Source: Nocardioidaceae bacterium
GTDB lineage: Bacteria; Actinomycetota; Actinomycetes; Propionibacteriales; Nocardioidaceae
Length of the DNA: 64,000 nucleotides
Direction: 5' to 3'
NCBI GenBank assembly: GCA_030447585.1
Contig: JAUJOO010000001.1
Location: 154,213-218,212, forward strand
Shown: positions 24,651 through 44,357 of the stretch, piece by piece
How positions within the stretch are numbered: position 1 is the stretch's first letter
Layout of the letters: every line of letters starts with the position of its first letter
Notes under the pieces: generated by a model
Seen by the model: only the letters and a program-made list of their open reading frames with translations
Told to the model about the DNA's origin: nothing
Databases searched by the model: none
Position numbers and translations under genes: made by a program

Positions 24651-26360
24651 TCACACGAGCGGCGCTGCACTGCGGATCGTCAGGCCGACGCCAACGAGCA
24701 AGACCAGCGCTGCAGTGATGATCGGCGCGGCGGTCGCCAAGCGAGAGATCCAACGGTGTCGGGCAAGGACGCGCAAGCGGCTCAAGCGGCCGGGCAGCTT
24801 GGCGATCAAGTAGCCGATCGTCGTGAGGGTGACGGCCATCCCGATGCCATAACCGACCACAAGGGCGACTCCGAACACGGTGCGGCCCAGCGCGATAGCC
24901 CCCAGCAAGACGATCAATGCAGATGGGCTAGGCACCAATCCACCGGCGAGTCCCATGCCCACCAGAGTCAGCCTGCGGAAACCGCGGTCTTCCGACGGTC
25001 GAGCCGGGTTGTCGCCATGCGCATGGTCGGGGACGTTCGCATGGGCGTGACGGGTGGCTTCGTGCGAGCCGCCGTCGGCCCCGACGGACGAGACGGTTGC
25101 TGGTGCCGCACCGAGGAGGAAATCCTCTCCTGGTCGGGGTCGGTCCTCCGTCTGCGGCACGGTCACCAGCAGGGCGTCGTCGCCATGCTCATGGCCATGC
25201 CCGTGACCATGGCCGTGTCCATGACCGTGCCCGTGGCCGTGACCCCACAGCTCGTCGACGGACCCTTGGTGGCGGCGACGCAACGCACCCCGCACCAGGG
25301 CCAGGCCGATACCCGCCACGAGCAGACCACTGATGACTCCGAGCACGGCCAGAACGGTCTCACCCGCGAACGACACCGAGGCGCTGAACAGCAGCCCGAG
25401 CAGGAGCACACCGACGGTATGGGTCAGCGTCACCGTGGCGGCGATGACCACTGCGTCCTTCGGTGAGCCGCGGGTACCGACCATGTACGCCGCCATCAAC
25501 GTCTTCCCGTGCCCAGGCAGCGCCGCATGCGACACGCCCAGTAGGAGCGACAGCAGCACGGCCAGCACCCCCACCCCGATTGTCAGCTCGGAGCTGCCGA
25601 CGAGGGAGTCCAGCCGCGCCGTCATCGCGCTGAGAAAGGAGGCGACTGGTCCGGCCTTCGGGAGCTCAGGGAGGTCACCGAGATCGGCATTCGTGCCGGG
25701 CCGCGTCTGGAGCTGAATCGAGCGCTGGTCGAGCGGCGAGCTCAACAAGTCGTCGGGATACGCCCGTAGCTCGTTGCTGATGCTCTCCGCGACAACGTCG
25801 CGGTCACCGAGGTCGAGCCCTTCACCGGTGGCCGTGATCTCGCGCCACCCGATCCGGTCCTCGAGGTAGCGGTCGACGAACGACACGGAGGAAGGTTGTC
25901 GCAGGTCGACGACGGCGTTCAGCGAACACTCCAGTCGGCTCACCTTGAGTCCCGCTGCCCCCGGTCGGTAGCCGAAGGACGACGACACCACGGTCCACGG
26001 CACCCGGGACCCGTTGACACGAAGCTCGAGCTGATCGGCGAGCGACGTGCACCGTGAGTCGGCAAAGACGCTTCGCTCGGCAGTAGAGGCTTCTCCGTCA
26101 CCGTCGGCATCGACAGTGTCGAACTCCTGGATGGTAGGCAGCTCCGCCGAGTCGATGACAGCGGTATTGCGCACCCCACCGGTGCTGAGCTCCAGGCCGT
26201 TGTAGTGGTTAATCGTGAAGTTGCCGAGCGGATGCGCGCTGGCGGGAGCGATGGGAAGCGCGAGGAGCACCACGACGAGCCCGACGACGTATGCGGCCCT
26301 TCGCCCGAGGCAGCGACGGCGCGTCGTACTCACAAGCTCAGCCGCTCCGACGAAGCTCAA
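24651..26360 (-). CDS. NicO/HupE-like nickel/cobalt transporter with large extracytoplasmic N-terminus and His-rich loop
   Basis: SAHPLGNFTINHYNGLEL...LLLGVSHAALPGHGKTLMAAYMVGTRGSPKDAVVIAATVTLTHTVGVLLLGL...GHGHGHGHGHGHGHGHGHEHGDD. Confidence 0.82.
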   Translation of the reverse strand: MSFVGAAELVSTTRRRCLGRRAAYVVGLVVVLLALPIAPASAHPLGNFTINHYNGLELSTGGVRNTAVIDSAELPTIQEFDTVDADGDGEASTAERSVFADSRCTSLADQLELRVNGSRVPWTVVSSSFGYRPGAAGLKVSRLECSLNAVVDLRQPSSVSFVDRYLEDRIGWREITATGEGLDLGDRDVVAESISNELRAYPDDLLSSPLDQRSIQLQTRPGTNADLGDLPELPKAGPVASFLSAMTARLDSLVGSSELTIGVGVLAVLLSLLLGVSHAALPGHGKTLMAAYMVGTRGSPKDAVVIAATVTLTHTVGVLLLGLLFSASVSFAGETVLAVLGVISGLLVAGIGLALVRGALRRRHQGSVDELWGHGHGHGHGHGHGHGHGHEHGDDALLVTVPQTEDRPRPGEDFLLGAAPATVSSVGADGGSHEATRHAHANVPDHAHGDNPARPSEDRGFRRLTLVGMGLAGGLVPSPSALIVLLGAIALGRTVFGVALVVGYGIGMAVTLTTIGYLIAKLPGRLSRLRVLARHRWISRLATAAPIITAALVLLVGVGLTIRSAAPLV

Positions 26361-27669
26361 TCAGCGCTTGGCGGGCTTGCGGCGCGAGGAGCGGCGAGAA
26401 ATACGGGTTGATCTCAAGCGCTCGCTCCAGAGATCGGGTGGCTTCGGGCACCATACCCAGCGACTTCTCGATCATGCCGCGGTGGAACGCGAAGAGTGCG
26501 TTGCGCATACCGATCCGCTCCGCGGCGATGGCATGGGTCAGTGCCTTTCGGTCTTTGCCGTTGACGTGCAGAGCCCATGCGTAGGCATCCTCGACGAACA
26601 CGCCCTTGCGCTCTTTCCACGCCGCACGTGTCGCGGTGAGGGCCTCGTACTCACGACCGTTCGATGCGTCGTACACCGCGAGCTCCAAGTCCAGGTTGAC
26701 TCCCGCTGCGCGCTGAAGCTGCACCTGCGCATCGATCAGGTCACGCTGCTCGGCCGCTTCCGCCGGCCGGTCGAGGGACGTGAGGAAGTCGGCGTACTCG
26801 ATGAGGTACTGAGGTTGCGGAAGCCGCTCGATCACCCGCTCGTACCGGGCGACTGCCTTCGCGTCATCGCCACGTGCTGCCGCGGTCTTTGCGAGACCGT
26901 AGAGGTTCGGCACCCACGACGGGGCGAGGGTCAGCCCCTGACGGTACCGCCGTGCCGCCTGCGACAGGTCACCCTGGTTCCAAGCCAGCTCGCCGAGCTG
27001 GAAAAGAGCGAAGGCCTTGTCGTCGGTGGAGTAAGCGACCTTCAAGGCCTGGCGCATTGCATAGTGAGCACCCCGCAGGTCCCCCCGCAGCTCGTAGCTG
27101 TAGGAGACGCGCGAGTACGACGGCACGCCCGGCTTCAGGTCGACCATCCGCTGCAGCTCCCTGAACGCCTCGCCATAGCGGCCGAGCTCGACCAGCGCGT
27201 CCACCATCACACCGAGGCTCACCGAGTCGTACTCGTTGATGCGCTGCGCCTGACGAGCCAGCTGAAGCGAGCGTCCGAACCGGTGCCGGGCTGCGGCCAG
27301 TGCGGCCTGGCCAGTGAGGGCGGGCGCGTTGCTCTCCGGCTGCTCGCGAAGGGAACGGCGGAACGCGCCGGCCGCTTTGCCGTAGTAGGTCGGATCTCCG
27401 CTGACCCGGGCCTGCTGCACGTACGCCAGCCCCAAAGCGGCCCACGACCCGGAGTCCGCGGGAACCCGGCGCAGCCGAGCCTGCAACGATGCGATGGCGT
27501 CGGTCGCATCGCCTGGGCCGCTGACGGCTTCTACGCTGACTGCGCCTCGGCCGGCGGGACTCGGCGGGTTCGAACTGCTTGGCGTGATGACGACCGCCCC
27601 AACCAGCAGTGCTGCCAGAGCCAGGCCGACCGCTGCCGCCGCGAACCGCGCCAACCGGCTCCGGCTCAC
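26338..27669 (-). CDS. Tetratricopeptide-repeat protein with N-terminal TM/signal
   Basis: Serial TPR-like helices; stop overlaps the start of the transporter ORF. Confidence 0.8.
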   Translation of the reverse strand: MSRSRLARFAAAAVGLALAALLVGAVVITPSSSNPPSPAGRGAVSVEAVSGPGDATDAIASLQARLRRVPADSGSWAALGLAYVQQARVSGDPTYYGKAAGAFRRSLREQPESNAPALTGQAALAAARHRFGRSLQLARQAQRINEYDSVSLGVMVDALVELGRYGEAFRELQRMVDLKPGVPSYSRVSYSYELRGDLRGAHYAMRQALKVAYSTDDKAFALFQLGELAWNQGDLSQAARRYRQGLTLAPSWVPNLYGLAKTAAARGDDAKAVARYERVIERLPQPQYLIEYADFLTSLDRPAEAAEQRDLIDAQVQLQRAAGVNLDLELAVYDASNGREYEALTATRAAWKERKGVFVEDAYAWALHVNGKDRKALTHAIAAERIGMRNALFAFHRGMIEKSLGMVPEATRSLERALEINPYFSPLLAPQARQALIELRRSG

Positions 27670-28550
27670 TTCTTGGCCTTCGTCACGAGACGTGCTGAGA
27701 CCACCAGGTTCTCGCTGTACTGACCGGTGTCGCGGTCATACGTCCCGCCACAGGTGATGAGGTGCAGCAGCGGGGGACCGTCGTCACGGTAGACGCGGTC
27801 GGAGGGAAAGTCCGTCCGCGAGTAGAGCACGCTGTCGAAGATTTTGAACGTGGCGGCCGTCGAGTCGGCTCGTTCGACCCGGACCAGGTCGCCGACCCGC
27901 AGGGAGGACAACCCGTAGAAGACGGCGGGACCGGTCGGAGAGTCGACATGGCCGACGAACACGGCAGCACCCCGCTCCCCAGGTCGCGGTCCGGTGTGCC
28001 ACCAGCCGACGTCACTCCAGCGCTGCGGCACCTGAAGTGCCCCGCCTACGACATCCAGATTGACCAGCCCCTTCTTCAGACCGATCGCGGGAACCACGAG
28101 ACGGGTTGGAACCGCGACGGCGGCGTCCGACGCCTGCGCGGGTCGAGTCTTGATCGGTTCTGCGAGCGGGGCCCTTCCGCGGTACTTCGGAACGACGAGC
28201 TTCTGTCCCACCTCGATGGAGTTAGGGTCGGCCAGGGAGTTCAGCCGGATGATTCTCGTGACCACGTTTTGGGGGTTCTTGCCCGGGGCGTAGGTAGCCG
28301 CGATCCCCCAGAGGCTCTGACCCGCCTCCACCGTGACCTTTCTGGTCGCCGGCTTTGCTCGCGAGGGCGGCGGCTCCTCTGGCCGATCCTTGAGTCGCTG
28401 CTGCTTGAGTGGCGACGCAGGCAGGCTCGCAGCCGGTTGCGGCTCCGCCTTCGCAGAGGCGCCGCCAGACCCCACGCCCATGAGGTAACCGGACGCGAAC
28501 ACCGACAGGCAGGCGAGGATGCCGGCGACGGCCACTCCGACCTTTTGCAT
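27666..28550 (-). CDS. Class F sortase with N-terminal LysM domain
   Basis: LysM: VTVEAGQSLWGIAATYAPGKNPQNVVTRIIRLNSLADPNSIEVGQKLVVP; sortase: LVVPAIGLKKGLV...AAVFVGHVDSPTGPAVFYGL...HLITCGGTYDRDTGQYSENLVVSARLV. Confidence 0.85.
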   Translation of the reverse strand: MQKVGVAVAGILACLSVFASGYLMGVGSGGASAKAEPQPAASLPASPLKQQRLKDRPEEPPPSRAKPATRKVTVEAGQSLWGIAATYAPGKNPQNVVTRIIRLNSLADPNSIEVGQKLVVPKYRGRAPLAEPIKTRPAQASDAAVAVPTRLVVPAIGLKKGLVNLDVVGGALQVPQRWSDVGWWHTGPRPGERGAAVFVGHVDSPTGPAVFYGLSSLRVGDLVRVERADSTAATFKIFDSVLYSRTDFPSDRVYRDDGPPLLHLITCGGTYDRDTGQYSENLVVSARLVTKAKK

Positions 28551-28615
28551 GATGCCGCCAAAGTGGCGGGCGGAAGCTTGCCCGCCCGCCACCTCTTTGT
28601 GCTCTGACACCTGGC

Positions 28616-30223
28616 TCAGGCCTCGACCTGACCCCGACGGTTGCGCCGAAGCAGCCAGAAGCCGTACGCGGCGAAGCCGAGTCCGAGTGCTGCGGCAGCG
28701 GACGCGAGAGCAGGAGCTCCGGTGTCGTCCGTGGTCACCGAATCAGCCCTCTGGCCGAGGTCACGCCGGTTGGGTGCGACCGCACCTTGGTCAGCGGTTC
28801 CACCGCCACCCGCCGAGACGCCACCGGACGGCGAGGCAGCTCCCGCGTCAGCCGAACCAGAGTGCGGCAAGGCGACGTACGGGAACGTGGACTCGAACGC
28901 AAGGTCGTTTGCATCGACAGCGTCGCCGGCGGCCAGTGCCTCGACGAGCTTGCCGGTGCGCACAGCGCCTTCGAGGGCCTGGATCTCGATGTCAACGACA
29001 TCATCGACCAGGCGGCGACCATTGGGGAAGCCGCCGGTGTCCCCAGCCAGCACACCAAGCCTGTTGGGCTCAGCGGTGGGCGGGATCGATGTGTTCAGTC
29101 GCAACATCTCAGCTGGCTGCACCTTGCCCTTGGGCTTGTTGAGCCCCTCGACCCCGGTGAGGAACACCGCGAACAAGTCCTCGCGGGGTGTCTTCGGAGC
29201 GGGGATGCCGTAGATGGCTTCGATCAGCTTCGGCACCTCTGGGTCGTTGACCCTGTCGACTGCCGCAGCGACACTCGCGTCGTTTTCCGGCGCAAGCGCG
29301 TTGAAGGCGTCTTTCAGTGCGATGGGGATGACGACCTCGTTGACCAAGGGGTTGCCGAGGCGGGACACCTGCACGAAGTCGCCCTTGTAGGTCTGCGTTC
29401 CATCCGCGTGGTGCACCTTCATGGCGGGGCGGTCGGTCGTGCTCCAGACACCGATGACGGGGTCGTTCTTCCCGCCGGTCAAGTTTTCAATCGGCACCTG
29501 AAACGCGATGGTGTTGACGTTGTAGCCAGACAGCGTGTCCATTCCGGTCTCGCTCAGGTCAGCGCCGTACAGCAGGTCGAACACCCGCAGATCCAGGAAG
29601 AACGGGTCGTCGGCCTGGCCGGCGAAGGTGAGCTCCCCTGGTTCAGATGTCGGCCTGATGGCCTGGTCGCGCAGCGAGGCGTAGTCCGGCATCGAGGCTT
29701 GGCCAACGTTGGACGGAGCCACGGGGACGTTCTCAGCCAGAACTTTGGAGCTGCCGCCCTTGATGCGGGTCAGCGTGTACGTCTGCTTGAAGTTCAAGGT
29801 GGGGTCGTCGAGAGACGTCACCGGACCGGTGTTGTAGAGGAACGTGTCCTTCGTCTCGTAGGAGCTGTCGAAGTCCCACATGTAGGTGATGTCCTCTTTG
29901 GCGTCGCCGTTGTTGTCGATCTTGATGTTGTAGTGAGCCTCGTCGGCGAACGGGTAGAAGTTGGGGCCGCCGGCCGGCTCCTCGAAGGGCAGCCAGTTGG
30001 CGATCAGTGTGACGGTGTCTGGCTTGTCCGGACTTACGAACGCGTACACGTCCGTGTTGTCCGCCTGTGGGTCAGCAAGGAGCTGGGGCGCCTCGCGGTG
30101 GCTTGATGCGGAACCGGTCTCTGGCCCGAGCAGCGCCGCTGCTCCAAGAAAGGCCAGGGCTGAGGATGTTAATGCGGCCGTGGTGGCACGTAAGGGCCGC
30201 CTTGGGTGGGACAACGAAGACAT
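28616..30223 (-). CDS. DUF4331 domain protein, exported, C-terminal TM plus basic tail
   Basis: SSHREAPQLLADPQADNTDVYAFVSPDKPDTVTLIANWLPFEEPAGGPNFYPFADEAHYNIKIDNNGDAKEDITYMWDF; tail TTDDTGAPALASAAAALGLGFAAYGFWLLRRNRRGQVEA. Confidence 0.88.
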   Translation of the reverse strand: MSSLSHPRRPLRATTAALTSSALAFLGAAALLGPETGSASSHREAPQLLADPQADNTDVYAFVSPDKPDTVTLIANWLPFEEPAGGPNFYPFADEAHYNIKIDNNGDAKEDITYMWDFDSSYETKDTFLYNTGPVTSLDDPTLNFKQTYTLTRIKGGSSKVLAENVPVAPSNVGQASMPDYASLRDQAIRPTSEPGELTFAGQADDPFFLDLRVFDLLYGADLSETGMDTLSGYNVNTIAFQVPIENLTGGKNDPVIGVWSTTDRPAMKVHHADGTQTYKGDFVQVSRLGNPLVNEVVIPIALKDAFNALAPENDASVAAAVDRVNDPEVPKLIEAIYGIPAPKTPREDLFAVFLTGVEGLNKPKGKVQPAEMLRLNTSIPPTAEPNRLGVLAGDTGGFPNGRRLVDDVVDIEIQALEGAVRTGKLVEALAAGDAVDANDLAFESTFPYVALPHSGSADAGAASPSGGVSAGGGGTADQGAVAPNRRDLGQRADSVTTDDTGAPALASAAAALGLGFAAYGFWLLRRNRRGQVEA

Positions 30224-30676
30224 CGCTTCGTCCTTTCCGTTGACGAAAACGAGACGACTGATGGCCGCCTCCTCAAACCCTAGGGGGATGTCCCAGGGGA
30301 CAGCTGGTGTTGCGTATTGCCTGGTGTTGCGTCTTGCCGCCGTGTTCACCCTGGGGCCAGAGTGAACAACAACACTGTGCACTACTTCGGTCAAATAGGG
30401 AAGAAATTCTTAGCCGGATGAGCGTGCGTATCCAATGAGCCGGATCGCCCCGAGACTCCATGAACGGGAGATCGTTGTGGAAACGTGATGTCTGGACGTG
30501 TACGCATCTGACTACTCCATTCGGGCGGATCAACCCACCCACTACCAAATGACACACAGGGTTCGACGCCGCCTGCGGGTTGGATTGGACCTGCCGGCAA
30601 CTTTTTTCGTCCGGGTCTCCGCGCCCGGCACCGTCATGCCCGCCGCGTGCGAAGGACTCTGCCGGGTTCGCCTCGC

Positions 30677-31432
30677 TCAGCGAGCGGAGACCAGGTGTGC
30701 GAACGCTACAACGTTACCGAGGTAGCCCGCGTCGTCGTCATAGTTCCCGCCGCAGGTGATGAGGCGGAGCTCGGCTCGGTTGGTGGTGTCCCCGTACACC
30801 TCGTGGGTGGGGAACTCTGCCTTGGCGAACGCCTCGACGCGGTCGATGAGGAAGGTACCGACCGTGCCGTCCGCCCGCGTCACGTGCACCCGGTCGCCGG
30901 GGTCGAGCTCTCCGAGGCGATAGAACACGGCCGGGCCGCGGTCGCTGTCGACATGTCCGGCGATGACCGCAGGCCCGAACTGACCTGGTGACGGCCCGGG
31001 GTAGAACCAGCCTGGTGCGGAGGGGTCCTCAGGGACCTCGATGGCGCCGTCGGCTGCCAGACCAAGGTCCACGATGTTGGTGCTGTGGACGCCAATGTCC
31101 GGAATGTCGAGAGCGACCGGTGCGGAGGCGGGAAGGATCGGGCCGAAGTCGATCGCCTTGTCAGGTCGACCGCTGGGGACACCCTCCTGGGGTTGAGAAC
31201 TTTCCTTGCGTTGCTTGTTCTGCTGCTTTGTGACTGTCGTGGATTGCGGCTCGGGGGAGGGCAGGGGAGCGGCTGAGTCGCTGGCAGCCGCATCGCTCAC
31301 AGGCTGCGGGGGACCGCCCGAGGTGCGCATTCCGACGGCGATGAGTGCCACCCCGATCAGGAGCAGCACAACTGTGGCCGCCGCGGCAGTGTGTATGCCG
31401 CGACGGCCTCCGGGTTGGGTGGGGTTGGTCAT
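30677..31432 (-). CDS. Class F sortase
   Basis: MTNPTQPGGRRGIHTAAAATVVLLLIGVALIAVG...ALDIPDIGVHSTNIVDLGLAADGAIEVPEDPSAPGWFYPGPSPGQFGPAVIAGHVDSDRGPAVFYRLGEL...LRLITCGGNYDDDAGYLGN. Confidence 0.9.
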   Translation of the reverse strand: MTNPTQPGGRRGIHTAAAATVVLLLIGVALIAVGMRTSGGPPQPVSDAAASDSAAPLPSPEPQSTTVTKQQNKQRKESSQPQEGVPSGRPDKAIDFGPILPASAPVALDIPDIGVHSTNIVDLGLAADGAIEVPEDPSAPGWFYPGPSPGQFGPAVIAGHVDSDRGPAVFYRLGELDPGDRVHVTRADGTVGTFLIDRVEAFAKAEFPTHEVYGDTTNRAELRLITCGGNYDDDAGYLGNVVAFAHLVSAR

Positions 31433-32224
31433 TACGCCTGGGTGCGGGTGCGGCGGGCGGCGACGGCTCCGGTGCCGACGGCGATCAGCACGAGGCTGCC
31501 GCCGAGGGCGATCAGGGCGGTGTCGCTGTCTGCTGCGGTGCCACCGTTGCCGGTGTCGGCTCCGCCGGCGGGGGCGGCGAACAAGACGCCACACAGGGCC
31601 GGGTCGGTGGCCTCGGTGGGCAGGCTCGGGTCGAGGTCGGACTTGACTGCGCCGTCGTACTTGCCGCTGTTGTTGTGGTCGACGCCGTGGATGACGACAA
31701 CCGACTCGCCGTTGGCGATGGCGGTGGCGATCTCGGGGCGACGGTGATGCTGCCGCGCTGGTAGGAAAGCTGGCCGCCGGGTGCGGTGTCGAAGCGGTCA
31801 ACGGCCAAGACGCTGTCGGGGCTGGTGTCGCCGGTCTTGGTCAGCGATACCACGACCGGGCCGTAGGCCGGTGCGCCGTCGGTGGTGTTGATCCTGCCGT
31901 CGTTTCCTGCGTCGTCGGCGGCGACCGGGCACTCGTGGCGGGCGTCGGCAGCGAAGTGGATGTGGGCCGCGTGGGGCATGTCGGGCAGCAGGCCGGAGGC
32001 GGCCATGGTGACGTTGATCTGGTTACCGTCGACCTGCACCATGGCGGTGCCGCTGCCGCTGACGCCGTTGAGGGGACCGGCTGCAGGTTGGCGGAGGTGT
32101 CTCCGTCGGCTGCCAGTGCGGTGCCCATGCCCAGGAAGGGCGAGGCGGCCAAGGTGGCGACTGCCAGCCCGGCCAGCTTGTGAGATGTACGCATTCGGTG
32201 ACTCCGATTTCGTTGGGCGGACAA
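31430..32224 (-). pseudogene. CHRD domain protein copy A, two single-base frameshifts relative to copy B
   Basis: Versus copy B: gttgaggggaccgg/gttgagggcgaccgg near 32070 and ctcggggcgacgg/ctcgggggcgacgg near 31736. Confidence 0.8.
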
Positions 32225-32483
32225 CTACCGCCATCGTGGATGTCTCGTAGAAGGTTCGTCACCGACCCGGGACCGGATTGGTGCCGGCCGACATTCCGCA
32301 ACCCCTCCACCAGCTCCAAACGCTCCACCAGCAGGTGCCGCCACGCCCGGGTGCGCGACCCGGTACCCCGCCGCCCTCGGCGCCCAACGTTGCGGTGTGG
32401 GACAGCAATCCCTTTGCGGTGCCGCGCCGAATCACCACTACGTGGACGACCCGGTCCGCAGCCACGCCCAGGAAGACCACCCG

Positions 32484-32837
32484 ATGACGACCAAGCCAAC
32501 CATCCTCACCGTCGCAGTACTGGCCCTACTTGCCACCGGATGCAGCTCATCGGACCAACAAACCTCCGCAGAAGGCGATACGCAACAAGGCAGCGGCCCG
32601 GTGATCAGCATCCAGGAGTTCGTTTACGACGAGCCTGAGTCGGTGACACCGGGCGCCGAGGTCACGGTCACTAACGAGGACAGTGCGGCCCACACGGTCA
32701 CGGCAGACGATGGCGCCTTCGACGTCACCGTCGACGGTGACGCAACGGCGACGTTCACCGCCCCGTCGAAACCGGGCGAGTACACCTACGTGTGCGACTT
32801 CCACCCCGACATGACCGGCACGTTGGTCGTACAGTGA
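32484..32837 (+). CDS. Cupredoxin/plastocyanin-like lipoprotein
   Basis: MTTKPTILTVAVLALLATGCSSSDQQTSAEGD (lipobox ATGC) ...VTVTNEDSAAHTVTADDGAFDVT...GEYTYVCDFHPDMTGTLVV (Cu ligands H, C, H, M). Confidence 0.85.
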   Translation: MTTKPTILTVAVLALLATGCSSSDQQTSAEGDTQQGSGPVISIQEFVYDEPESVTPGAEVTVTNEDSAAHTVTADDGAFDVTVDGDATATFTAPSKPGEYTYVCDFHPDMTGTLVVQ

Positions 32838-33295
32838 GCGACCACCCTCGGCCGGCATCGGTGACAATGACGGAGCTGGTCGTCAGGGTGCTCGTGGCGG
32901 CCGGGTTGGGAATCCAGGCCGTCATCCACCTGAAGCTGGCTCCCAACTACCAGCTGGCGTTCCCCGACGGGATCGGCGCAGGCACCCTGTTTCGGATCGA
33001 GGCCGCGGCCGCGATCCTGGCCGGTCTCTACCTGTTGGCCCGCGGGTCCCGACCGGCGTACCTGCTGGCGGCCGCTGTCGCACTCGGTGGCCTCGCCGCC
33101 GTCGTGCTCTATCGCTACGTCGACGTCGGATCCTTCGGGCCGATGCCGGCCATGTACGAACCGATCTGGTTCTTCGAGAAGACTCTGAGCGCCATTGCCG
33201 AGGCGGCTGCGGGCGTGCTGGCGCTGGTGGGAGCCCTCTTGGCCGGGCGGATATCGCGTCACGACACCCCGGCGACTGCTGGCAGTCGCCGCTGA
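32834..33295 (+). CDS. Hypothetical membrane protein, translationally coupled to cupredoxin
   Basis: VSDHPRPASVTMTELVVRVLVAAGLGIQAVIHLKLAPNYQLAFPDGIGAGTLFRIEAAAAILAGLYLL; GTGA overlap. Confidence 0.7.
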   Translation: MSDHPRPASVTMTELVVRVLVAAGLGIQAVIHLKLAPNYQLAFPDGIGAGTLFRIEAAAAILAGLYLLARGSRPAYLLAAAVALGGLAAVVLYRYVDVGSFGPMPAMYEPIWFFEKTLSAIAEAAAGVLALVGALLAGRISRHDTPATAGSRR

Positions 33296-33371
33296 GCCGC
33301 TGCGCCTACGTCGCGGCACCCCGCGGGGGCAGGCAGCAACTGCTGCCTGCTCTGCCGGTCGTCCCAGTGAG

Positions 33372-34505
33372 CTAATGCGACACACCGGCGCGCGGGAGCT
33401 GAACGAGAAAGCGGCAGCCCTCGTCGACGTTGTCGACCCGCACTGTGCCGTGGTGAGCCTCGGCGATGCCGCGTACGATCGCCAACCCCAGGCCGGACCC
33501 AGCCGACCACTGCGCTGACTCCGGAGTACGGGCGTCGCTGCCCCGCCAGGCGACGTCGAACACCCTGTCCAGGTCCTCCGGCGCAATGCCGCCGCAGGCG
33601 TCCTCGACGGCCACCTCTACCCCGTCTCGACCGGCTCGACCCGTCACTTCCACGCGACCCGCACTCGGGGTATGACGGATGGCGTTCGTGACCAGGTTCG
33701 AGATCATTCTCGACAGCTCTCGCGGGTCCGCCTGGACTGCAACACCGGGCTCGGCGTAACCGCCGAGCTCAACCCCGCGCGCCTGTGCTACCGGACCACT
33801 CACCGCCAGCACCTCGCTGATGGCCTCGTCGAGCGAGACAGCCTCGAGCGTAAGGTCCAAGGCCCCGGCGTGGATGCGGGAGAAGACGAAGAGGTCGTCG
33901 ACCATCTGCGCCATCTTGTCGACGGTCAGCCGCATCTGTACGTGGTAGCGAGCAGGATCCTCGGCGATGCCGTCCTCCAACGCCTCGGCCATCGCTCTCA
34001 GGCCGGCGAGCGGCGTTCTCAGGTCGTGGGACGTCCAACTGATGAGCTCGCGCCGCGACGCCTCGAGGGATCGCTCGCGTTCACGCGACTCGGTCAGCCG
34101 CTGGGAGGTCACCGCGAGCTGGTCCGACACCGCGGCGAGCTCCGCCGGTACGTCGTCTGGGCGTACGAAGGTCCCGCTCTCTCCGAGCATGCGGGTTGCC
34201 TCCAGCACCGCCTGCGAGCCCGACACGGCCCAGCGAGCCACCAGCAAGGAGAAGGCGAGAGCGACCAGACCGGACGCGGCGACGACCTGTAAGACGACGC
34301 CGAAGTCGTGCTCCGAGAGGAACATCTCCTTGGCGGTGGCGATCGCGCCGGCCGCGATGCCGAGGACAGCGCACAGTGCGACCATGGCGAACGCCCAGCG
34401 CACCGAGCGACGCCGCACCAGGTAGGCGAGCACCAGACCGACCACCCCGACCGCCGCTGCCGATCCCGCCGCGAGGCAGATGACTACGACGGTGTCACGG
34501 TTCAC
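33372..34505 (-). CDS. Sensor histidine kinase
   Basis: HisKA SWTSHDLRTPLAGLRAMAEAL; HATPase ISNLVTNAIRHTP, GSGLGLAIVRGIAEAHHG. Confidence 0.92.
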   Translation of the reverse strand: MNRDTVVVICLAAGSAAAVGVVGLVLAYLVRRRSVRWAFAMVALCAVLGIAAGAIATAKEMFLSEHDFGVVLQVVAASGLVALAFSLLVARWAVSGSQAVLEATRMLGESGTFVRPDDVPAELAAVSDQLAVTSQRLTESRERERSLEASRRELISWTSHDLRTPLAGLRAMAEALEDGIAEDPARYHVQMRLTVDKMAQMVDDLFVFSRIHAGALDLTLEAVSLDEAISEVLAVSGPVAQARGVELGGYAEPGVAVQADPRELSRMISNLVTNAIRHTPSAGRVEVTGRAGRDGVEVAVEDACGGIAPEDLDRVFDVAWRGSDARTPESAQWSAGSGLGLAIVRGIAEAHHGTVRVDNVDEGCRFLVQLPRAGVSH

Positions 34506-35184
34506 GCCCTACCTCCCAGCGGTAGCCGACGCCCCAGACGGTAGCCAGCCGTGTCGGGTTGGTCGGATCGGCATCGATCTTCTCCCGCAGCCGGCGCACG
34601 TGGACGGTCACCGTTGACTGGTCGCCGTACGACCAGCCCCAGACCTTCTCCAAGAGCTCCACGCGGGTAAAGGCGACACCGGGGTGCGCCATGAAGAACC
34701 GAAGGAGGTCGAACTCCCGGAGAGTCAGGGCGAGCGGCGCCCCGTCGAGGCGGACCTGACGACTTGGACCGTCGACGACCAGGGCCCCATCGCGCCAGAC
34801 CCTGCTGTCAAGGCTGGCCTTCTCCCGCGTCCTTCGCAGCACCGAACTGACGCGGAGCACGAGCTCGCGTGGGGAGAACGGTTTCGTGAGGTAGTCGTCG
34901 GCACCGATCTCCAGACCGGTGACGCGGTCGGCCTCACTGCCGAGTGCCGTAAGCATGATGACCGGCAGGTCGTCTCTGAGTCGGAGCCGGCGGCACACCT
35001 CCAGCCCGTCGAGTCCGGGCAACATCACGTCGAGGACGACGAGGTCTGGGCGCTCGTGGCCAACCATCGACAAGGCGGTCTCGCCGTCCGAGGCCTCCGC
35101 CACGTCGTACCGCTCCGCGCGCAGGTAGGAGATCACCACCTCCCGGACGGTCGGGTCGTCGTCGACCACCAGAACGCGGCTCAC
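34495..35184 (-). CDS. OmpR/PhoB-family response regulator
   Basis: VSRVLVVDDDPTVREVVISYLRAERYDV...LDVMLPGLDGLEVCRRLR...winged helix STVTVHVRRLREKIDADPTNPTRLATVWGVGYRW. Confidence 0.93.
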   Translation of the reverse strand: MSRVLVVDDDPTVREVVISYLRAERYDVAEASDGETALSMVGHERPDLVVLDVMLPGLDGLEVCRRLRLRDDLPVIMLTALGSEADRVTGLEIGADDYLTKPFSPRELVLRVSSVLRRTREKASLDSRVWRDGALVVDGPSRQVRLDGAPLALTLREFDLLRFFMAHPGVAFTRVELLEKVWGWSYGDQSTVTVHVRRLREKIDADPTNPTRLATVWGVGYRWEVGREP

Positions 35185-35218
35185 GTGCAGCCTTGCGCGG
35201 TTGTCGTGTGCTCGAGTC

Positions 35219-35734
35219 TCATGTGCCCGATTGTCCCTCGGCCGCCGCACGAGCAGCCCGGAAGCCGTTCCCGTCGGCAGCAGGTACGTCGTGTGCGCGG
35301 TCTCCGCCAGGGTTGTCCTCGTCACCACGACTGGCTGACTGCCGCCGCTGCCACCAGGAGCCGACCGCGACACCGAGCGTTGTCAGGAGGGCCAGCACGA
35401 GCCAGCCACCGACGTAGTCGCGGTCGAGGAGTGTCGGGTTGTCCTCGCGTGCCCCGAAGCGTCCGAGCACGGGGAGAGCCATCAGCGTGGCCGAGCCGAG
35501 GACCACGAAGCCGGCGACCACGGGCATCCGTGCCCACACGGGAAGTACCCTCATCACGACCGCTCCGACAAGCACCACCACCGGTGCCAACATTGCATCG
35601 TGGACGACGGCACCACCGACCAGCCACAGCAGCGCATCGCGCAGGTCAGCACCGTCTTGGCCGAGCAGCTTCCACAGGCCGACCGCGGCCAGCCCGACAC
35701 CGGCCAGGCCGAGAATGCTGCGGACCGTCCTCAC
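35219..35734 (-). CDS. Hypothetical membrane protein
   Basis: VRTVRSILGLAGVGLAAVGLWKLLGQDGADLRDALLWLVGGAVVHDAMLAPVVVLVGAVV... Confidence 0.65.
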   Translation of the reverse strand: MRTVRSILGLAGVGLAAVGLWKLLGQDGADLRDALLWLVGGAVVHDAMLAPVVVLVGAVVMRVLPVWARMPVVAGFVVLGSATLMALPVLGRFGAREDNPTLLDRDYVGGWLVLALLTTLGVAVGSWWQRRQSASRGDEDNPGGDRAHDVPAADGNGFRAARAAAEGQSGT

Positions 35735-36956
35735 ACCGTCACCTCGAGGCGGCTGACCCACTTGGTCTGCAGAACGCCCGGACGAGCCGGCGCGATGATC
35801 CGACAGGGAAGCCGTGGTCGATGCTCAGCGTCTCGCCGTTGAGCTCGAGCGCGAGCAGTGTCAGCGGATCACGGGCGAACTGGCGCGGCAGCGAGGTCAC
35901 GGTGAACGGCCCGTCACGCTGGAGCGACTCGACGGTGACGTCTGCCTCGGCGGGTGCGCCCAGCTGGTCGAGCAGATGGCTGACACGAACGCCGGTCCAC
36001 TCACCGGACGCGCTCCAGCCCTCGACGCAAGCGATGGGTAGCGTCGCCGTCGTCTGGGGCATCGACCTGAGGTCGGCGAGGGTGAATGTCGCGGATCGGT
36101 CTTTGTGGGTGACCTCGAGGGTGTACGACGGGGAAGTGGCGGCAGGCACCACCTTCGCCGCGACAGCACTCGTGTTGATGGGCACACCCTGGGGTCCGTC
36201 ACCCGAGCGGACCGCGAAGATGGACACTCGTCGCAGCCAGGGAACAGACGCTCCCGCGGTGCTGAGGACGACGACGCCCGTCGCAAGCCAGGTGGCTCGC
36301 AGCAGCCCCCGACGGCTCAGTCCCGCGGTCACCGGACCGGTGCGGGGTACAGACTCACCGGGGTGCGGGCTGGTGGCCCGCTCCGCGTCGGTGTCGTCCG
36401 AGCGAAGCCCGGCGTCCACGCTGCCGGTCAGAGCGTCTCGGATGACCGGAAGCTTGACGGCGATATGCAGCGCGAGTGACCCGATCGCCACCCAGGCCAC
36501 GGCATAGTGGGCCGAGCGGAAGCTGAACGCCCACGGGTACCACTGGGAGGAGTTCGCCAGCCCGGTGACCAGCTGGAAGATGGCGGCCAGGACGAGCAGC
36601 GTGATCGAGGCGCGCTCGGCCAGCTGGACGCCCAGGCGCCGAACGTGGAGCAGGTCAAGTCGCTCGAAGAGCTTGGGGAACACCGACCACAGCTTGACGA
36701 GCAACAGCGGCACCGCGGCGCTTCCTGCGATCAGATGCACGCCCTGAGTGACGCGGTACAGCCATTCGGGACGCGTCGGTAGCGTGAGCCAGGTCGGGTT
36801 GTCCTGCGCGAAGTGGCTGTACAGACCGGTCACGAAGGCGAGGAAGAAGGTGATCCCCAGCCACAACCCGACCCGCGCCGTCACCTCGGGTCCTCGAAGC
36901 CGCGACGTGAAGTCCTGAGGCCGCGGGATCAGCCGGCGCGGGTCTGGTAGGCGCAT
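35731..36956 (-). CDS. Molybdopterin-dependent oxidoreductase (sulfite-oxidase fold) fused to N-terminal membrane domain; single 3' frameshift
   Basis: TM domain then LPIACVEGWSASGEWTGVRVSHLLDQLGAPAEADVTVESLQRDGPF...ELNGETLSIDHGFP; corrected tail RIIAPARPGVLQTKWVSRLEVTV* ends at 35731. Confidence 0.8.
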
Positions 36957-36958
36957 GC

Positions 36959-37655
36959 CTAGTCCTTCTTTTCCAGCGCCGCGAACCAGCGACCACCTGA
37001 GTCGACCAGTTCAAGCACTCTCAAGGACGCCTCGAAGGCCAGCCCCTCCAACCGGTCGGCCGGCACCGTCGCCCAGGGGAACGGTCGGGTACGGCGCCCG
37101 GCCACCTCCAACCGCAGCCGGTGGACGCCGATGTGGCCCCCCGGGGGCAGAGACGTCAGCGACGATGCGGCCGCGCGACGCCAAGATGTTGCCAAGTCGA
37201 CGCAGGAGCCGCAGCGGGTCGCCGCCGATTCCGATGTTGCCGTCTGCCAGCAGCGCCGTACTCCAGCGTCCCTCTCCCGGGAGCGTGGCGAACACGTCGC
37301 GGTGCACAGCCATGGCTCCTCGGGACCGGGTGAGCTCGACAGCCTCGGGGACCACGTCGATGCCGAGAGCCAAGACGCCACGTCCGAGCAGTGCCCTGCT
37401 CATTCGGCCGGGGCCGCAGCCGACGTCGACCGTCGCGTGGAGGCAGCGACTGAGGAGCTCGTGGTCAGCGGCATCCGCGTCGGCACGCCACCGATGCGCG
37501 GGGAGCAGGAAGTCACCGCCGCTGGCCCCGGTCACTAGACAAGGCTCGCCACGCAGGGCGGCCGCGAACGCCTCGCCGGCGCTGAGGTCGTCTCTGTTGC
37601 GGCAGCAGGCGGGATGGTTCGGCAGGGCCTCGAGGCCACGAGGCACGGCACTCAT
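36959..37655 (-). CDS. Class I SAM-dependent methyltransferase, apparent frameshift
   Basis: TVDVGCGPGRMSRALLGRGVLALGIDVVPEAVELTRSRG...GRIVADVSAPGG then frame change at ccccccggggg to HIGVHRLRLEVAGRRTRPFPWATVPADRLEGLAFEASLRVLELVDSGGRWFAALEKKD. Confidence 0.75.
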
Positions 37656-38352
37656 CGAGCAGCTCCATGCACGATCTGCCCGAGCAGCTTCGCGAAGCGG
37701 GTGGAAGGCGCCAGGGCAGCCACCCGAAAGGCGTCGTCCATGGTGTCGACATCTGTCAAGGCGTGCAGCCGACTCACCCGTGCACCGGTGGACTCGAGCG
37801 CGGCCTGGGTGAGGTCGCAGGTGTCACTCTGCGACATCGGAACCTGTGTCAAGGCGTCGACGTATCCCGCAGCTCTGGTGGCCAACCCCACCAGCCGCCA
37901 TCGGTGGCAGGGCCGAGAGCAACGTGACCGCTGCGCGAACTCGCAACGTCCACGGCGGCAGCCAGGTCGGCGAGGTCCCGACCAGTGATCTGAGGGGTGT
38001 CGGTCCCGATCTGGACGAGTGGCGCGTCGTCTCCGGGTGTGTCGGCCACGTCATGGTGGGCGTTCACCAGTCTTTCCGCAAACGTCGTACCCCGCTGGGT
38101 AAGGACGCGCCAGTCAGTGAGACGGGCAGCGATCTCGTCGCCGTCCACCGCGGCGCGGAGATCTCCACTGAGGGCGAGGATGCGGGTGTCCGCCGGGGAG
38201 ACACTCTCGACGGCGTCGAGCGAGTCGAGCAACGCGGCGGCAGCGAGCGCAGCCGCTTGCGCATCGCCGACCGCAGTCGCAAGCCTGGTCTTGGACAGGC
38301 CGGCGACCGGGGATTTGGCGACGACAAGGACCCGGGCGGCGAAGCCACTCAC
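37652..38352 (-). CDS. DUF2064/TIGR04282-like glycosyltransferase, apparent frameshift
   Basis: VSGFAARVLVVAKSPVAGLSKTRLATAVGDAQAAALAAAALLDSLDAV...LVQIGTDTPQITGRDL...LGPATDGGWWG then frame change near 37887 to LATRAAGYVDALTQVPMSQSDTCDLT.... Confidence 0.78.
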
Positions 38353-39008
38353 GGCAACACCCGCGCGAAGTCCCGAGCTGTGCGCAGGGTTCCGCGGACC
38401 GTTCCCGACACCTTTGACTTGGTGCCGGCTGCCCGAGGCCGATACGTGATGTCGTGCTCGCGGAACAGCCAGCCTGCCGCCTGAGCCTTCACGAGCAGCT
38501 CGACCGGATAACCAAAGCGCCTGTCCTGCAGGTCGAGCCCCAGCAGGTCTCGGCGACGGCACACCCGCATCGGTGCTATGTCGTGGACGGGGAGGCCGGT
38601 ACGCCACCGAAGCCAGGCCAACACCGCCGCGTTCCCCAGCCTGGCATGCCATGGCTGTACGCCTGCTGCGCTCGAGCGTCGGCGGCCGACCGCCATGCGG
38701 GCGCGTCCCTCTTCGACGTCGTCGAGCATGGGCAACAGGTCGGCCGGGTCCATTGACCCGTCTGCGTCCATGACTGCGATGAGCTCCGCAGTCGCTGCTC
38801 TGACGCCGGCGTGGACCGCAGCGCCGTACCCCGCAACGCTCTCCAGCACCACGGTCGCCCCGAGAGCCCGGGCGACGTCGGCTGTGTCGTCACAAGAACC
38901 GTTGTCGACGACGATGACGCGAAGGTCAGCGGGCACCTTGGCCAGCAGCGCCGGCAAGGCGGCCGCCTCGTCTCGACACGGAAGCACAAGGTCACAACGG
39001 GCGGGCAC
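38349..39008 (-). CDS. Glycosyltransferase family 2
   Basis: CDLVLPCRDEAAALPALLAKVPADLRVIVVDNGSCDDTADVARALGATVVLESVAGYGAAVHAG...AVMDADGSMDPADLLPML. Confidence 0.9.
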   Translation of the reverse strand: MPARCDLVLPCRDEAAALPALLAKVPADLRVIVVDNGSCDDTADVARALGATVVLESVAGYGAAVHAGVRAATAELIAVMDADGSMDPADLLPMLDDVEEGRARMAVGRRRSSAAGVQPWHARLGNAAVLAWLRWRTGLPVHDIAPMRVCRRRDLLGLDLQDRRFGYPVELLVKAQAAGWLFREHDITYRPRAAGTKSKVSGTVRGTLRTARDFARVLP

Positions 39009-39140
39009 CCCAAAAGACTAGGTAAGACCGCGAACCGCTGACGCTCACAACACTTACGGAACTGTGACACCGCCCGTTGGTGCTTTGAACGCCGTGCGAC
39101 ATCGGGCCGCAGGTGAACACGCCGCATTAGGCTCGCCGGT

Positions 39141-40522
39141 ATGTCTTCACGGGCGGCGCTCTCGTCTACGCACCGGCTCCTTGCCCCGCTCCGTTTCCGT
39201 AGCAGCACACCGCTGACAGGGCTCACCATCTCGGTGGCGCTGATGGTGGTCGCGATGGCAGTTCCCGCGATCTTCGGCTGGGACGTGCATGTGCGCTACT
39301 TCCCGCCACTGCACGCGGAGTGGGAGCCGCGCTATGGGCCGGGGACGCTGCCCGCCATCGTCGTGGCGGGCGTCTCGCTCGTCTACGCGCGGCGCGTGGC
39401 CGCCACCGCAAGCTGGCGCAACCTGCTGGCCGGTGCTTACGGGCTCGGGGTGGCGTGGATGGTCAGCCTTGCCACGGTGGACGGCTGGGGCGGCATCGGC
39501 GACATCCTTGAGACGGACTACGAGTACCTGCGCACCGCTCGGACGATCACCAGCGTGGCTGACGTTTCGACGATGCTGCACGGGTACGTCGACCGGATCC
39601 TCTCCAGTCATCCCGACAACTGGCCGGTTCACGTGGCCGGGCATCCACCGGGGGCTGTGCTGTTCTTCGTGGCACTCGTGGCCATCGGGCTGGGTGGTGG
39701 TCTGGCTGCCGGCTGGGTCGTGCTGCTGATTGCCGCGACCACACCACTGGCAGTCCTGACGACGCTGCGGGTCCTCGGCGCGGAGGCGCAGGCCCAGGAC
39801 GCGGCGCCATTCCTCGTCGTCGGACCGGCCGCGATCTGGATGGCGGTCTCGGCCGACGCGATGTTCGCGGCGGTCGGAGCTTGGGGGCTTGCGTGCCTCG
39901 CGATCGCCGCAACCCGCGACGCAGCTCGTGCCGCGGTGGGATGGAGTCTGTTGGCGGGTCTCCTGCTCGGCTACTGCGTGATGTTGTCGTACGGTCTGCC
40001 CGCGCTGGGCATCTTGGCTCTCGCCGTCCTGCTGGTTGCGCGTAATGCCCGACCCCTGCCGTGGGCGGCAGTCATGGCGTTCGCCGTCGTGCTCACGTTC
40101 GCGGCTGCCGGGTTCTCTTGGTGGGAGGCGTTCCCGGTCCTTCGCGAGCGGTACTACGACGGCGTGGCCAGTAACCGGCCCATGGTCTACTGGAGCTGGG
40201 GCAGCCTTGCCGCGCTGTCATTTTCGGCTGGACCGGTCGTCGGGTCGGCGGTCGGGCAGGTGCTGGCCCGGGCACGGGGGCCTGGCGCGGTACGAGTGAA
40301 CAACGCCCCGTGGTGATCCTCACGCTGGGCGCGGTCGTGACCGTTGTGCTCGTCGACCTCTCGGGTATGAGCAGGGCAGAGGTCGAAAGGATATGGCTGC
40401 CTTTCGTGCCGTGGCTGCTCGTGGGAACGGCGCTGCTGTCCCCGCAGTGGCGAAAGATCGGGCTGGGCATCCAGGTCGGGCTCGCCCTCGCCGTACAGCA
40501 TCTGCTCTTCACCGGCTGGTAG
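39141..40522 (+). CDS. Polytopic membrane protein (possible GT-C glycosyltransferase), apparent frameshift at 40313
   Basis: Many TM helices; ...GPGAVRVNNAP then frame change at gccccgtgg to VVILTLGAVVTVVLVDLSGMSRAEVERIWLPFVPWLLVGTALL. Confidence 0.7.
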
Positions 40523-40548
40523 AGCGCGGGCAGCCGGGTACCTTGACG

Positions 40549-41594
40549 TCAGCGCTCACGCAGCGGCGAATGTGCGAACTCGCGCAACCCGTCTCGGGGC
40601 CGGACTTCGGCCCTGAACCCGAGCTCCGTCTCAGCCCGTTTGGGGTCGGCCACGATGTGGCGGACGTCGCCGGACCGGAACTGGCCGGTGGTCTTGGGCA
40701 TCAGGCCGGTAGATGCAGCACCGGAGATCGTTGTCGCCACGTCGGCGATGGCTACGGGCTCTCCGGAACCGATGTTGTAGGCGGCAAACGTATCCGGGGC
40801 GAGGCGGACTACCTGCTCCACGGCCAGCGCGTTGGCGTGGGCGACGTCACGCACGTGCACGAAGTCGCGCATCTGCCCGCCGTCCTCGAAGACCGTCGGC
40901 GCCTGCCCGCGAGCGAGCGCGGAGCGAAACATCGCCGCCACCCCCGCGTACGGCGTGTCGGCGGGCATGTGGGGGCCGTAGACGTTGTGGTAGCGCAGCG
41001 CGATCGCGGCGCCGGGCAGCTGGCGTGTCCAGGCGGAGGTGAAGTGCTCTTGCGCGACCTTGCTGGCTGCGTAGCTGCTCTGCGGGTTGAGGCGGGCATC
41101 TTCGTCGACAAGCTTCCACTGCATCGGCTCGCCACACACAGGACAACCGACCTCAAACCTGCCCTGCCTCAGCGCCTGGAGACTTCTGGCGGTTGCGTCC
41201 TGGTCGCCATGCTGCGGGCACGCGTAGCGGCCGTCGCCGTACACGACCATCGAGGACGCGAGGACGAGCCGGTCCACACCGGCCGCGGCCATGGCGGCGA
41301 GCACGACGGCGGTGCCGAGGTCGTTGTGGCCGGCGTAGAGCGGCAGGTCACGCGGTGTGAGCCCCGCGCCCACCATTGCGGCTTGGTGGCACACCACGCC
41401 CACCCCATCCAGCAGAGCAACCATGGTGTCGTGGTCGCGAACATCTGCCCGGAACAGGCCAGGGTCGACCAGAGCAGCACCGTCGCCGTGCGCCTCGGGG
41501 ATGAACGCGTCGACGCAAACGACGTCGTGGCCCCGCGCGCGCAGGGATGCCCTGTCGCGCTACCGATGAATCCGGCAGCACCCGTCAACAACAC
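40549..41594 (-). CDS. NAD-dependent epimerase/dehydratase, apparent frameshift near 41555
   Basis: VLLTGAAGFIGS / RDRASLRARGHDVVCVDAFIPEAHGDGAALVDP...VCHQAAMVGAG...ASSMVVYGDGRYACPQHG...SYAASKVAQEHFTSAW...ALRYHNVYGPHMP. Confidence 0.82.
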
Positions 41595-41637
41595 CTTGAT
41601 GGCGTCGCTCCCTCCTCGTGACGTTCGAGACTCGTCG

Positions 41638-42498
41638 TCACGGCAGCGTGAACGGCAGGTCCATCCCGTCCAGCGCATGGGCGCAGTCGCATCCCTGCCG
41701 CTTGACCGGGAGTGACTCGATGACCGTCGAAAGCAAGTTGCGGAGGCGGTCGAGGCCGCGACCGAACTCGGCGAAGACTTCTTCCTGACTGACTGACTCG
41801 CCACTAGTCACACCCGCGTCGCGATCGGTGACGAGAGCGACCGCGGCGTAACAGAGGGCCAGCTCTCGAGCGAGCACGGCTTCAGGGTGGCCGGTCATGT
41901 TGACGAGTGACCATCCCTGCGCGGCGTACCACTGCGACTCGGCACGGGTACTGAACCGTGGACCCTCGATCACAACCATGGTGGCGGGGCTTGCGATCGT
42001 CTCGTCGGCTGCCCGCAGTGACTCCCGCAGAGCTGGGCAGTAAGGGTCGGCGAACGCGACATGGGCTGCTCCCTCGTCCATGTACGTCTGCACCCGTCCG
42101 CTCGTCCGGTCGACGAGCTGGTCCGGCACGGCGAGGTCGCCCGGACCCAGCCCATCCTGGAGGCTGCCCACCGCGCAAGGAGCGAGCACGCGGCGCACCC
42201 CGAGTGAACGAAGCGCCCAGAGATTGGCCCGGTAGTTGACGCGATGGGGTGGGAACTCATGCCGACGACCGTGACGGGGCAGGAAGGCAACCTGGCGCCC
42301 GGCTACTTTTCCGACCGCGATCGGTGCCGAGGGGTGGCCATACGGCGTCGCGATGTCGACATCTTGAGCATCAGCCAGGAACTCGTAGAAACCCGAGCCT
42401 CCGATCACCGCGATCTCGGGCTCGGAGCCGGCGGGCCGTGCCTCCTTGGCGCGCCCTGGCGTCGGCTGGACAGTCATCCCGGTGGCGATCACCCGCAC
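41638..42498 (-). CDS. mtnP: S-methyl-5'-thioadenosine phosphorylase
   Basis: IAVIGGSGFYEFL...VAFLPRHGRRHEFPPHRVNYRANLWALRSLGVRRVLAPCAVGSL...IEGPRFSTRAESQWYAAQGWSLVNMTGHPEAVLARELALCYAAVALVTDRDAG. Confidence 0.92.
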   Translation of the reverse strand: MRVIATGMTVQPTPGRAKEARPAGSEPEIAVIGGSGFYEFLADAQDVDIATPYGHPSAPIAVGKVAGRQVAFLPRHGRRHEFPPHRVNYRANLWALRSLGVRRVLAPCAVGSLQDGLGPGDLAVPDQLVDRTSGRVQTYMDEGAAHVAFADPYCPALRESLRAADETIASPATMVVIEGPRFSTRAESQWYAAQGWSLVNMTGHPEAVLARELALCYAAVALVTDRDAGVTSGESVSQEEVFAEFGRGLDRLRNLLSTVIESLPVKRQGCDCAHALDGMDLPFTLP

Positions 42499-42810
42499 GT
42501 CGCCTCAGCGGGCGGGGTCTGGGAAGTGGTCAGAGACGGCCCCCGTCGATGCCGTGATGCTGTGGGCGGTCGATGTCATGACGGACCCGGTACCCCTGCC
42601 CCGGTTGACTAAACCGTGCTCGTCGCCATGCTGAGACGGCATTGGGAACTGCGGACTCATGCACAACCTGGCCAAGGAGCAAGACGGTCGACACAGAGTG
42701 ACGGGGCGGCTCCGGTCAGGCTCGGCGTCGGGCTTCGCTGACCAAAATGGCGGTGGCCGCCGCGGCAGTGTGTATGCCGCGACGGCCACCGGGTTGGGTG
42801 GGGTTGGTCA

Positions 42811-43605
42811 TTACGCCTGGGTGCGGGTGCGGCGGGCGGCGACGGCTCCGGCGCCGACGGCGATCAGCACGAGGCTGCCGCCGAGGGCGATCAGGGCGGT
42901 GTCGCTGTCTGCTGCGGTGCCACCGTTGCCGGTGTCGGCTCCGCCGGCGGGGGCGGCGAACAAGACGCCACACAGGGCCGGGTCGGTGGCCTCGGTGGGC
43001 AGGCTCGGGTCCAGGTCGGACATGGGCTTGCCGTCGTACTTGCCGCTGTTGTTGTGGTCGACGCCGTGGATGACGACAACCGACTCGCCGTTGGCGATGG
43101 CGGTGGCGATCTCGGGGGCGACGGTGATGCTGCCGCGCTGGTAGGAAAGCTGGCCGCCGGGTGCGGTGTCGAAGCGGTCAACGGCCAAGACGCTGTCGGG
43201 GCTGGTGTCGCCGGTCTTGGTCAGCGATACCACGACCGGGCCGTAGGCCGGTGCGCCGTCGGTGGTGTTGATCCTGCCGTCGTTTCCTGCGTCGTCGGCG
43301 GCGGTGGGGCACTCGTGGCGGGCGTCGGCAGCGAAGTGGATGTGGGCCGCGTGGGGCATGTCGGGCAGCAGGCCGGAGGCGGCCATGGTGACGTTGATCT
43401 GGTTACCGTCGACCTGCACCATGGCGGTGCCGCTGCCGGCGACGCCGTTGAGGGCGACCGGCTGCAGGTTGGCGGAGGTGTCTCCGTCGGCTGCCAGCGC
43501 GGTGCTCATGCCCAGGAAGGGCGAGGCGGCCAAGGTGGCGACTGCCAGCCCGGCCAGCTTGTGAGAGGTACGCATTCGGTGACTCCGATTTCGTTGGGCG
43601 GACAA
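42811..43605 (-). CDS. CHRD domain protein copy B (intact)
   Basis: MRTSHKLAGLAVATLAASPFLGMSTALAADGDTSANLQPVALNGVAGSGTAMVQVDGNQINVTMAASGLLPDMPHAAHIHFAADARHECPTAADD...; C-terminal TM plus RRTRTQA. Confidence 0.88.
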   Translation of the reverse strand: MSAQRNRSHRMRTSHKLAGLAVATLAASPFLGMSTALAADGDTSANLQPVALNGVAGSGTAMVQVDGNQINVTMAASGLLPDMPHAAHIHFAADARHECPTAADDAGNDGRINTTDGAPAYGPVVVSLTKTGDTSPDSVLAVDRFDTAPGGQLSYQRGSITVAPEIATAIANGESVVVIHGVDHNNSGKYDGKPMSDLDPSLPTEATDPALCGVLFAAPAGGADTGNGGTAADSDTALIALGGSLVLIAVGAGAVAARRTRTQA

Positions 43606-43868
43606 CTACCGCCATCGTGGATGTCTCGTCGTACAAGGTTCGTCACCGACCCGGGATCGGATTGGTGCCGGCCGCCATTCCTCGACGCTCCAGCAGCTTC
43701 AAACGCTCCACCAGCAGATGACGCCCGGATGCGCGCCCACCGCGCCCACCGCGCCCACCGCCGCGCCCAACGCCGCGCCGGTGTGGGCAGCAATCCCTTC
43801 GCGGTGCCGCGACGAATCACCACTACGTGGACGACCCGGTCCGCAGCCACGCCCAGGAGGACCACCCG

Positions 43869-44357
43869 ATGTCGACGAAGCCAACCATCCTCACCGTCGC
43901 AGTACTGGCACTACTCGCCACCGGATGCAGCTCCTCCGACCAACAAACCTCCGCAGAAGGCGACACGCCGCGAACCAGTAAGTCCTCCGTCCCGGCGTCC
44001 TCCAAGCCGTCCGCGGAGCCCAAGAAGAGCCCCAAGAAGAGCCCCAAGAAGAGCCCCAAGAAGAGCCCGAAGAATAGCCCGAAGAATAGCCCCTCGAAGC
44101 CTGCCGACGACTCTGTCGAGCTGACCATTCAGGACTTCATGTACGAGGTCCTCGACTCGGTTGCGCCGGGGACCGAGATCACGGTCACGAACGAGGACAG
44201 TGCGGCCCACACGGTCACCGCGGCTGACGGCGCCTTCGACGTCACGGTCGACGGCCGCGGCGGTACGACGACGTTCAAGGCTCCGTCGAAGCCAGGAGAG
44301 TATCCGTTCGTTTGCAACTTCCACGGCGGGATGACCGCGACTCTGGTCGTGAGCTGA
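43869..44357 (+). CDS. Cupredoxin-like lipoprotein copy B with (KKSP)n linker
   Basis: MSTKPTILTVAVLALLATGCSSSDQQTSAEGD...PKKSPKKSPKKSPKKSPKNSPKNSPSKP...TVTNEDSAAHTVTAADGAFDVT...GEYPFVCNFHGGMTATLVV. Confidence 0.87.
   Translation: MSTKPTILTVAVLALLATGCSSSDQQTSAEGDTPRTSKSSVPASSKPSAEPKKSPKKSPKKSPKKSPKNSPKNSPSKPADDSVELTIQDFMYEVLDSVAPGTEITVTNEDSAAHTVTAADGAFDVTVDGRGGTTTFKAPSKPGEYPFVCNFHGGMTATLVVS
44019..44092 (+). repeat. 12-bp tandem repeat (cccaagaagagc) in cupredoxin copy B linker
   Basis: Repeats read directly; absent from copy A. Confidence 0.9.

Follow-up and report, generated by a model that had tools for sequence, protein, structure and literature searches.

Organization of the duplicated module

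A repeat search and alignment of the window (the whole 64,000-nucleotide stretch analysed here, from a Nocardioidaceae bacterium) revealed two direct repeats in the same orientation, copy A at 31374-32837 and copy B at 42753-44357, 11.38 kb apart. This agrees with the sequence-only reading, which had placed two direct copies of a CHRD and cupredoxin module at these positions with a spacing of ~11.4 kb. The shared sequence runs from within codon ~21 of a sortase gene to the stop codon of a cupredoxin gene, and the start-to-start spacing was 11,379-11,385 bp in the sortase, CHRD and intergenic parts and 11,517 bp in the cupredoxin domain. Only these two copies were found in a search of the source assembly (3.1 Mb, 55 contigs), and a single 558-kb contig holds both.

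In copy A, the class F sortase gene (30680-31432, minus strand; Pfam Sortase, 2.9e-21) scored 188.7 bits against the NCBIfam class_F_sortase cut-off of 166. Its 5' end (31374-31434) lies inside the repeat, and its start ATG overlaps the stop codon of the CHRD gene (TAATG). The CHRD gene (31435-32195, minus strand) is followed by an intergenic region (32196-32483) and by a divergently oriented, lipoprotein-like cupredoxin gene (32484-32837, plus strand; Pfam Cupredoxin_1, 3.8e-12). Locus comparison placed a small hydrophobic-protein gene (32837-33295, plus strand) beside this cupredoxin only; its homologues adjoin cupredoxin genes in Janibacter, G100 and G146 (two loci; L170, L172, L174), forming an unnamed conserved pair.

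Copy B consists of a truncated sortase start of about 20 codons (42753-42811, minus strand), a CHRD gene (42811-43605, minus strand; likely ATG start at 43575) and a cupredoxin gene (43869-44357, plus strand; Pfam Cupredoxin_1, 9.5e-10). As had been noticed from the sequence, the remnant preserves ~21 codons from the sortase start (MTNPTQPGGRRGIHTAAAATA), after which the reading is unrelated and soon meets a stop. In the alignment, the copy B cupredoxin carries a lysine/proline/serine-rich linker of the KSPKK type, about 44 residues long, which is absent in copy A. Both CHRD genes had been treated as intact, which is true of copy B; the frame of copy A is broken twice in the assembly, where one base present in B is missing between 31734/31735 and another between 32074/32075, and these may be indel errors.

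Predicted surface anchoring of the CHRD protein

The copy B CHRD protein scored 24.2 bits against Pfam PF07452, barely above the gathering cut-off of 24.1, and a plasmid homologue carries a CHRD annotation. Its C-terminus was recognized by NCBIfam GVDTG_CTERM (36.5 bits; cut-off 29) and has the motif, membrane segment and basic tail of a GVDTG sorting domain (GGADTGNGG...ARRTRTQA). Among the loci compared, wherever a sortase gene adjoined CHRD the encoded protein had a GGxxTG motif followed by hydrophobic and basic segments, and nearly all CHRD proteins without such a neighbour stop just past the domain and have no tail. One locus (L013) was an exception, with a CHRD tail and no sortase detected. 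On the basis of this co-occurrence and of what is known of the family, the copy B CHRD protein is most likely wall-anchored, with the enzyme supplied in trans: either the copy A sortase or a second, LysM class F-like sortase of the window (27669-28610).

The module is known in kind, as a CHRD protein with a GVDTG sorting tail (NF058571) encoded next to a class F sortase (NF033748). Substrate tail and enzyme are adjacent here as they are in Jiangella, Janibacter, Blastococcus, G014, G095 and others, and pairs of CHRD and class F-like sortase genes recur in many further loci. Unlike these pairs, the substrate gene is duplicated here and the second copy has a sortase stub alone. The physiological roles of class F sortases have been described as unknown (PMC13251363), and our literature search found no paper pairing any two of CHRD domain, sortase and DUF4331. 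The module would form a cell-surface cassette, in which the GVDTG-tailed CHRD protein is probably anchored covalently by the adjacent class F sortase, beside a divergently encoded, copper-protein-like (cupredoxin) lipoprotein.

Uneven divergence between the two copies

The copies had been described as sharing very high identity. Ungapped identity between A and B was indeed ~98% at the sortase 5' end (98.4%) and in the CHRD gene (97.9%), but it was only 89.0% in the intergenic region between the divergent genes (5 gap events), 88.3% in cupredoxin codons 1-37 and 76.5% in the cupredoxin domain (91.9% overall, with 118 mismatches plus indels). The longest exact runs were 189, 159 and 132 bp, a match far above chance. 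By Nei-Gojobori counts, dS and dN were 0.024 and 0.019 for CHRD and 0.77 and 0.17 for the cupredoxin domain. Synonymous differences numbered 5 in about 208 sites of CHRD versus about 26 in 55 of the cupredoxin domain (Fisher p 6e-16). Thus, the alignment and dN/dS comparison proposed in the sequence-only reading gave a recent signature for CHRD, but an old one for the cupredoxin domain, whose dN/dS of about 0.22 suggests that both cupredoxins are functional.

Genes of the source genome differ from those of its congeners by a dS of about 0.5 to 1.3. The cupredoxin split is therefore old, since its dS falls within this range, and a single duplication on an even clock is ruled out by the presence of both dS values within one pair of copies. 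A low-dS tract inside a paralogous pair, the pattern by which interlocus conversion is recognized, was found. The step in divergence points to a duplication of greater age, followed by gene conversion that made the CHRD half alike again, rather than to one recent copying. According to such a scheme, the stretch from sortase codons 1-21 to the cupredoxin stop would have been duplicated in this lineage long ago, and recombination between the copies would later have evened out the CHRD and sortase-start part, while the cupredoxin part stayed divergent. A comparable process has been described for the repeated PE/PPE genes of M. tuberculosis, in which homologous recombination is reported to give rise to gene conversion and duplication (PMC12046097). 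Conversion was seen there directly among sequenced strains, whereas here it is deduced from the mosaic divergence of one genome.

Ancestral neighbourhood and occurrence in relatives

In Janibacter sp. HTCC2649 (L140), the small hypothetical gene and cupredoxin gene lie divergently next to the CHRD and sortase genes in one contiguous single-copy locus. This locus matches copy A in its four genes, their order and their orientation; it differs in that the module is single and that genes of the two-component/mtnP block are unmatched within the 20.8-kb locus. Thus, copy A has the ancestral neighbourhood. In G014 and G095, CHRD and sortase genes are together and the nearest cupredoxin is at a separate locus. 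The cupredoxin linker is present in G014, G095, G359 and Janibacter, which indicates that it was lost from A and not gained by B. It appears that cupredoxin B keeps the older protein form, while copy A keeps the older neighbourhood. The proposal that copy A is the parental arrangement therefore holds for the neighbourhood, but copy B is not a mere recent copy, given its cupredoxin dS and retained linker.

A CHRD match at E <= 1e-40 was found in 38 of 346 family genomes, a few of which hold two diverged copies. The check in relatives that had been suggested was carried out: Janibacter has one copy, and the near-identical pair occurs in the source genome alone and in none of the other family genomes. 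Three congeners (93, 77 and 77% complete) gave no CHRD or cupredoxin match. The comparison covers one genome per species, and the source is an 88.6% complete draft.

The bracketed block and its former site beside recA

Between the two copies lies a block of nine genes (33372-42498; Pfam scan and comparison with relatives), in the order histidine kinase, response regulator, molybdopterin oxidoreductase, methyltransferase, DUF2064, GT2, a 391-aa gene, epimerase and mtnP. This block separates the DUF4331/LysM-sortase genes from GNAT-CMAS. It is colinear in G001, G004, G011, G013 and G014, as far as their contigs extend; its kinase side runs on to recA in G011 and G014, and its mtnP side to an MMPL transporter gene in G001 and G004. 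In the source genome, MMPL (C36:60397-62589) and recA (C36:64999) are separated by 2.4 kb and belong to a different contig from the block. Since these conserved flanks adjoin here with the block absent from between them, the block appears to have left the recA locus and now sits between the module copies.

The gap between MMPL and recA (C36:62589-64999; L196) contains an LmeA-like gene, a CPBP protease gene and a small gene. All three have homologues within the block or adjacent to it in G014, G001 and G011, and the gap can be read as the scar of the relocated block. The original block was lost piecemeal rather than cut out whole, which suggests copying and then reciprocal loss. Most block genes are closest to the congeneric G001, with a dS of about 1, similar to the neighbouring CMAS gene, which fits vertical inheritance. 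On these same grounds, horizontal gain was rejected as the main reading of the block.

The NicO/TPR/LysM class F-like sortase/DUF4331 cluster (24651-30394 of the window) is kept in G002, and its DUF4331 part in G003 and G014. Here, the cluster has been split from the RlmN-side genes that accompany it in congeners and that are found on contig C4 instead. On that contig, several genes, among them those for an ISL3-type transposase, GH18 and GT2, lie between Cof hydrolase and LOG-like genes (C4:246501-252672; L197), close to where congeners keep DUF4331.

Origin of the arrangement

Taken together, the explanation that we somewhat favour is an old module duplication, turned into a mosaic by gene conversion, whose copies now enclose the nine genes from kinase to mtnP, a block that would have moved from its ancestral place between the MMPL transporter gene and recA. 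Several points weaken it: a small cluster of A/B differences at CHRD codons 193-198 does not fit one simple conversion tract, the recA-side block disappeared piecemeal, the step that placed the block between the module copies was not seen, and the comparison covers a single genome per species, with a draft as its source. The link between duplication and relocation is itself conjectural. Both could belong to one event, in which a circular intermediate carrying block and module integrated by recombination at a resident module to give module-block-module and the recA-side block then decayed by reciprocal loss, although we regard this as rather improbable. The main rival to gene conversion is a recent duplication of the module, with one copy afterwards exchanging its cupredoxin end by recombination for the diverged cupredoxin of another strain or species. 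The very low dS of CHRD would agree with this, and the grouping of cupredoxins A and B as sisters in the tree was weakly supported (57% and 0.85). On the other hand, no sharp edge of divergence was observed, and the intermediate divergence of the intergenic region (89%, with its gap events) and of cupredoxin codons 1-37 (88%) disfavours a single replacement tract; we therefore consider the swap unlikely, if still deserving of some weight.

Another question is whether the arrangement is an artefact of assembly, the order of the block between the copies or the frameshifts of copy A being unreal because the assembler or binner made a false join at the repeats. False joins typically arise at long, near-identical repeats, and the assembly is a draft. 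Moreover, recA (C36:64990-68440; L196) apparently has two inteins and several frame changes, one of them inside the extein, so that indel errors in the assembly are likely, unless recA is broken; recA of G014 apparently has one intein. The epimerase start near 41560 also looks frameshifted, with the Rossmann motif in another frame (window 41555-41600). Because of these frame changes in the same assembly, the frameshifts of copy A CHRD may reflect either a real pseudogene or assembly error, and a firm pseudogene call was not made. However, the mismatches and indels between A and B show that one sequence was not simply doubled by the assembler, both copies are inside one contig, the block is truly missing from the ancestral recA site, and a misjoin permutes sequence yet cannot create module copies beside the block. 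An artefact is accordingly a doubtful explanation of the arrangement as a whole. Still less probable, in our opinion, is active excision or amplification of the 11-kb segment through its direct repeats, a possibility raised in the sequence-only reading. Exact runs of the length observed are adequate substrates for RecA-type recombination, and excision or amplification could in principle occur. Against this, no deleted or amplified form was seen, Pfam scanning of the bracketed ORFs found no transposase or integrase, and the conservation of block genes such as mtnP and the two-component system across the family implies that their loss may be costly. A mobile element, composite transposon or integrative element was rejected as well: besides the lack of transposase and integrase, the 28-47 kb part of the window lacks inverted repeats of at least 40 bp, and a search of viral contigs gave no relative of the CHRD gene. 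Plasmid homologues of CHRD were distant only (<60%), on Streptomyces and Cryobacterium plasmids.

Implications

The favoured explanation, with an old duplication, gene conversion and block relocation, is informative yet ordinary, being built from known parts and processes. It illustrates that seemingly recent duplicates may date far back and owe part of their similarity to conversion, in which case identity alone gives the wrong age. The locus also shows in detail how a block conserved in the family would have left the recA locus and landed between direct repeats, the genes that remain at the old site complementing those found at the new one; if duplication and relocation were indeed one event, it would represent transposase-free relocation of a conserved block via a host surface-protein gene. 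Finally, the GVDTG tail of CHRD proteins is tied to a neighbouring sortase of class F.
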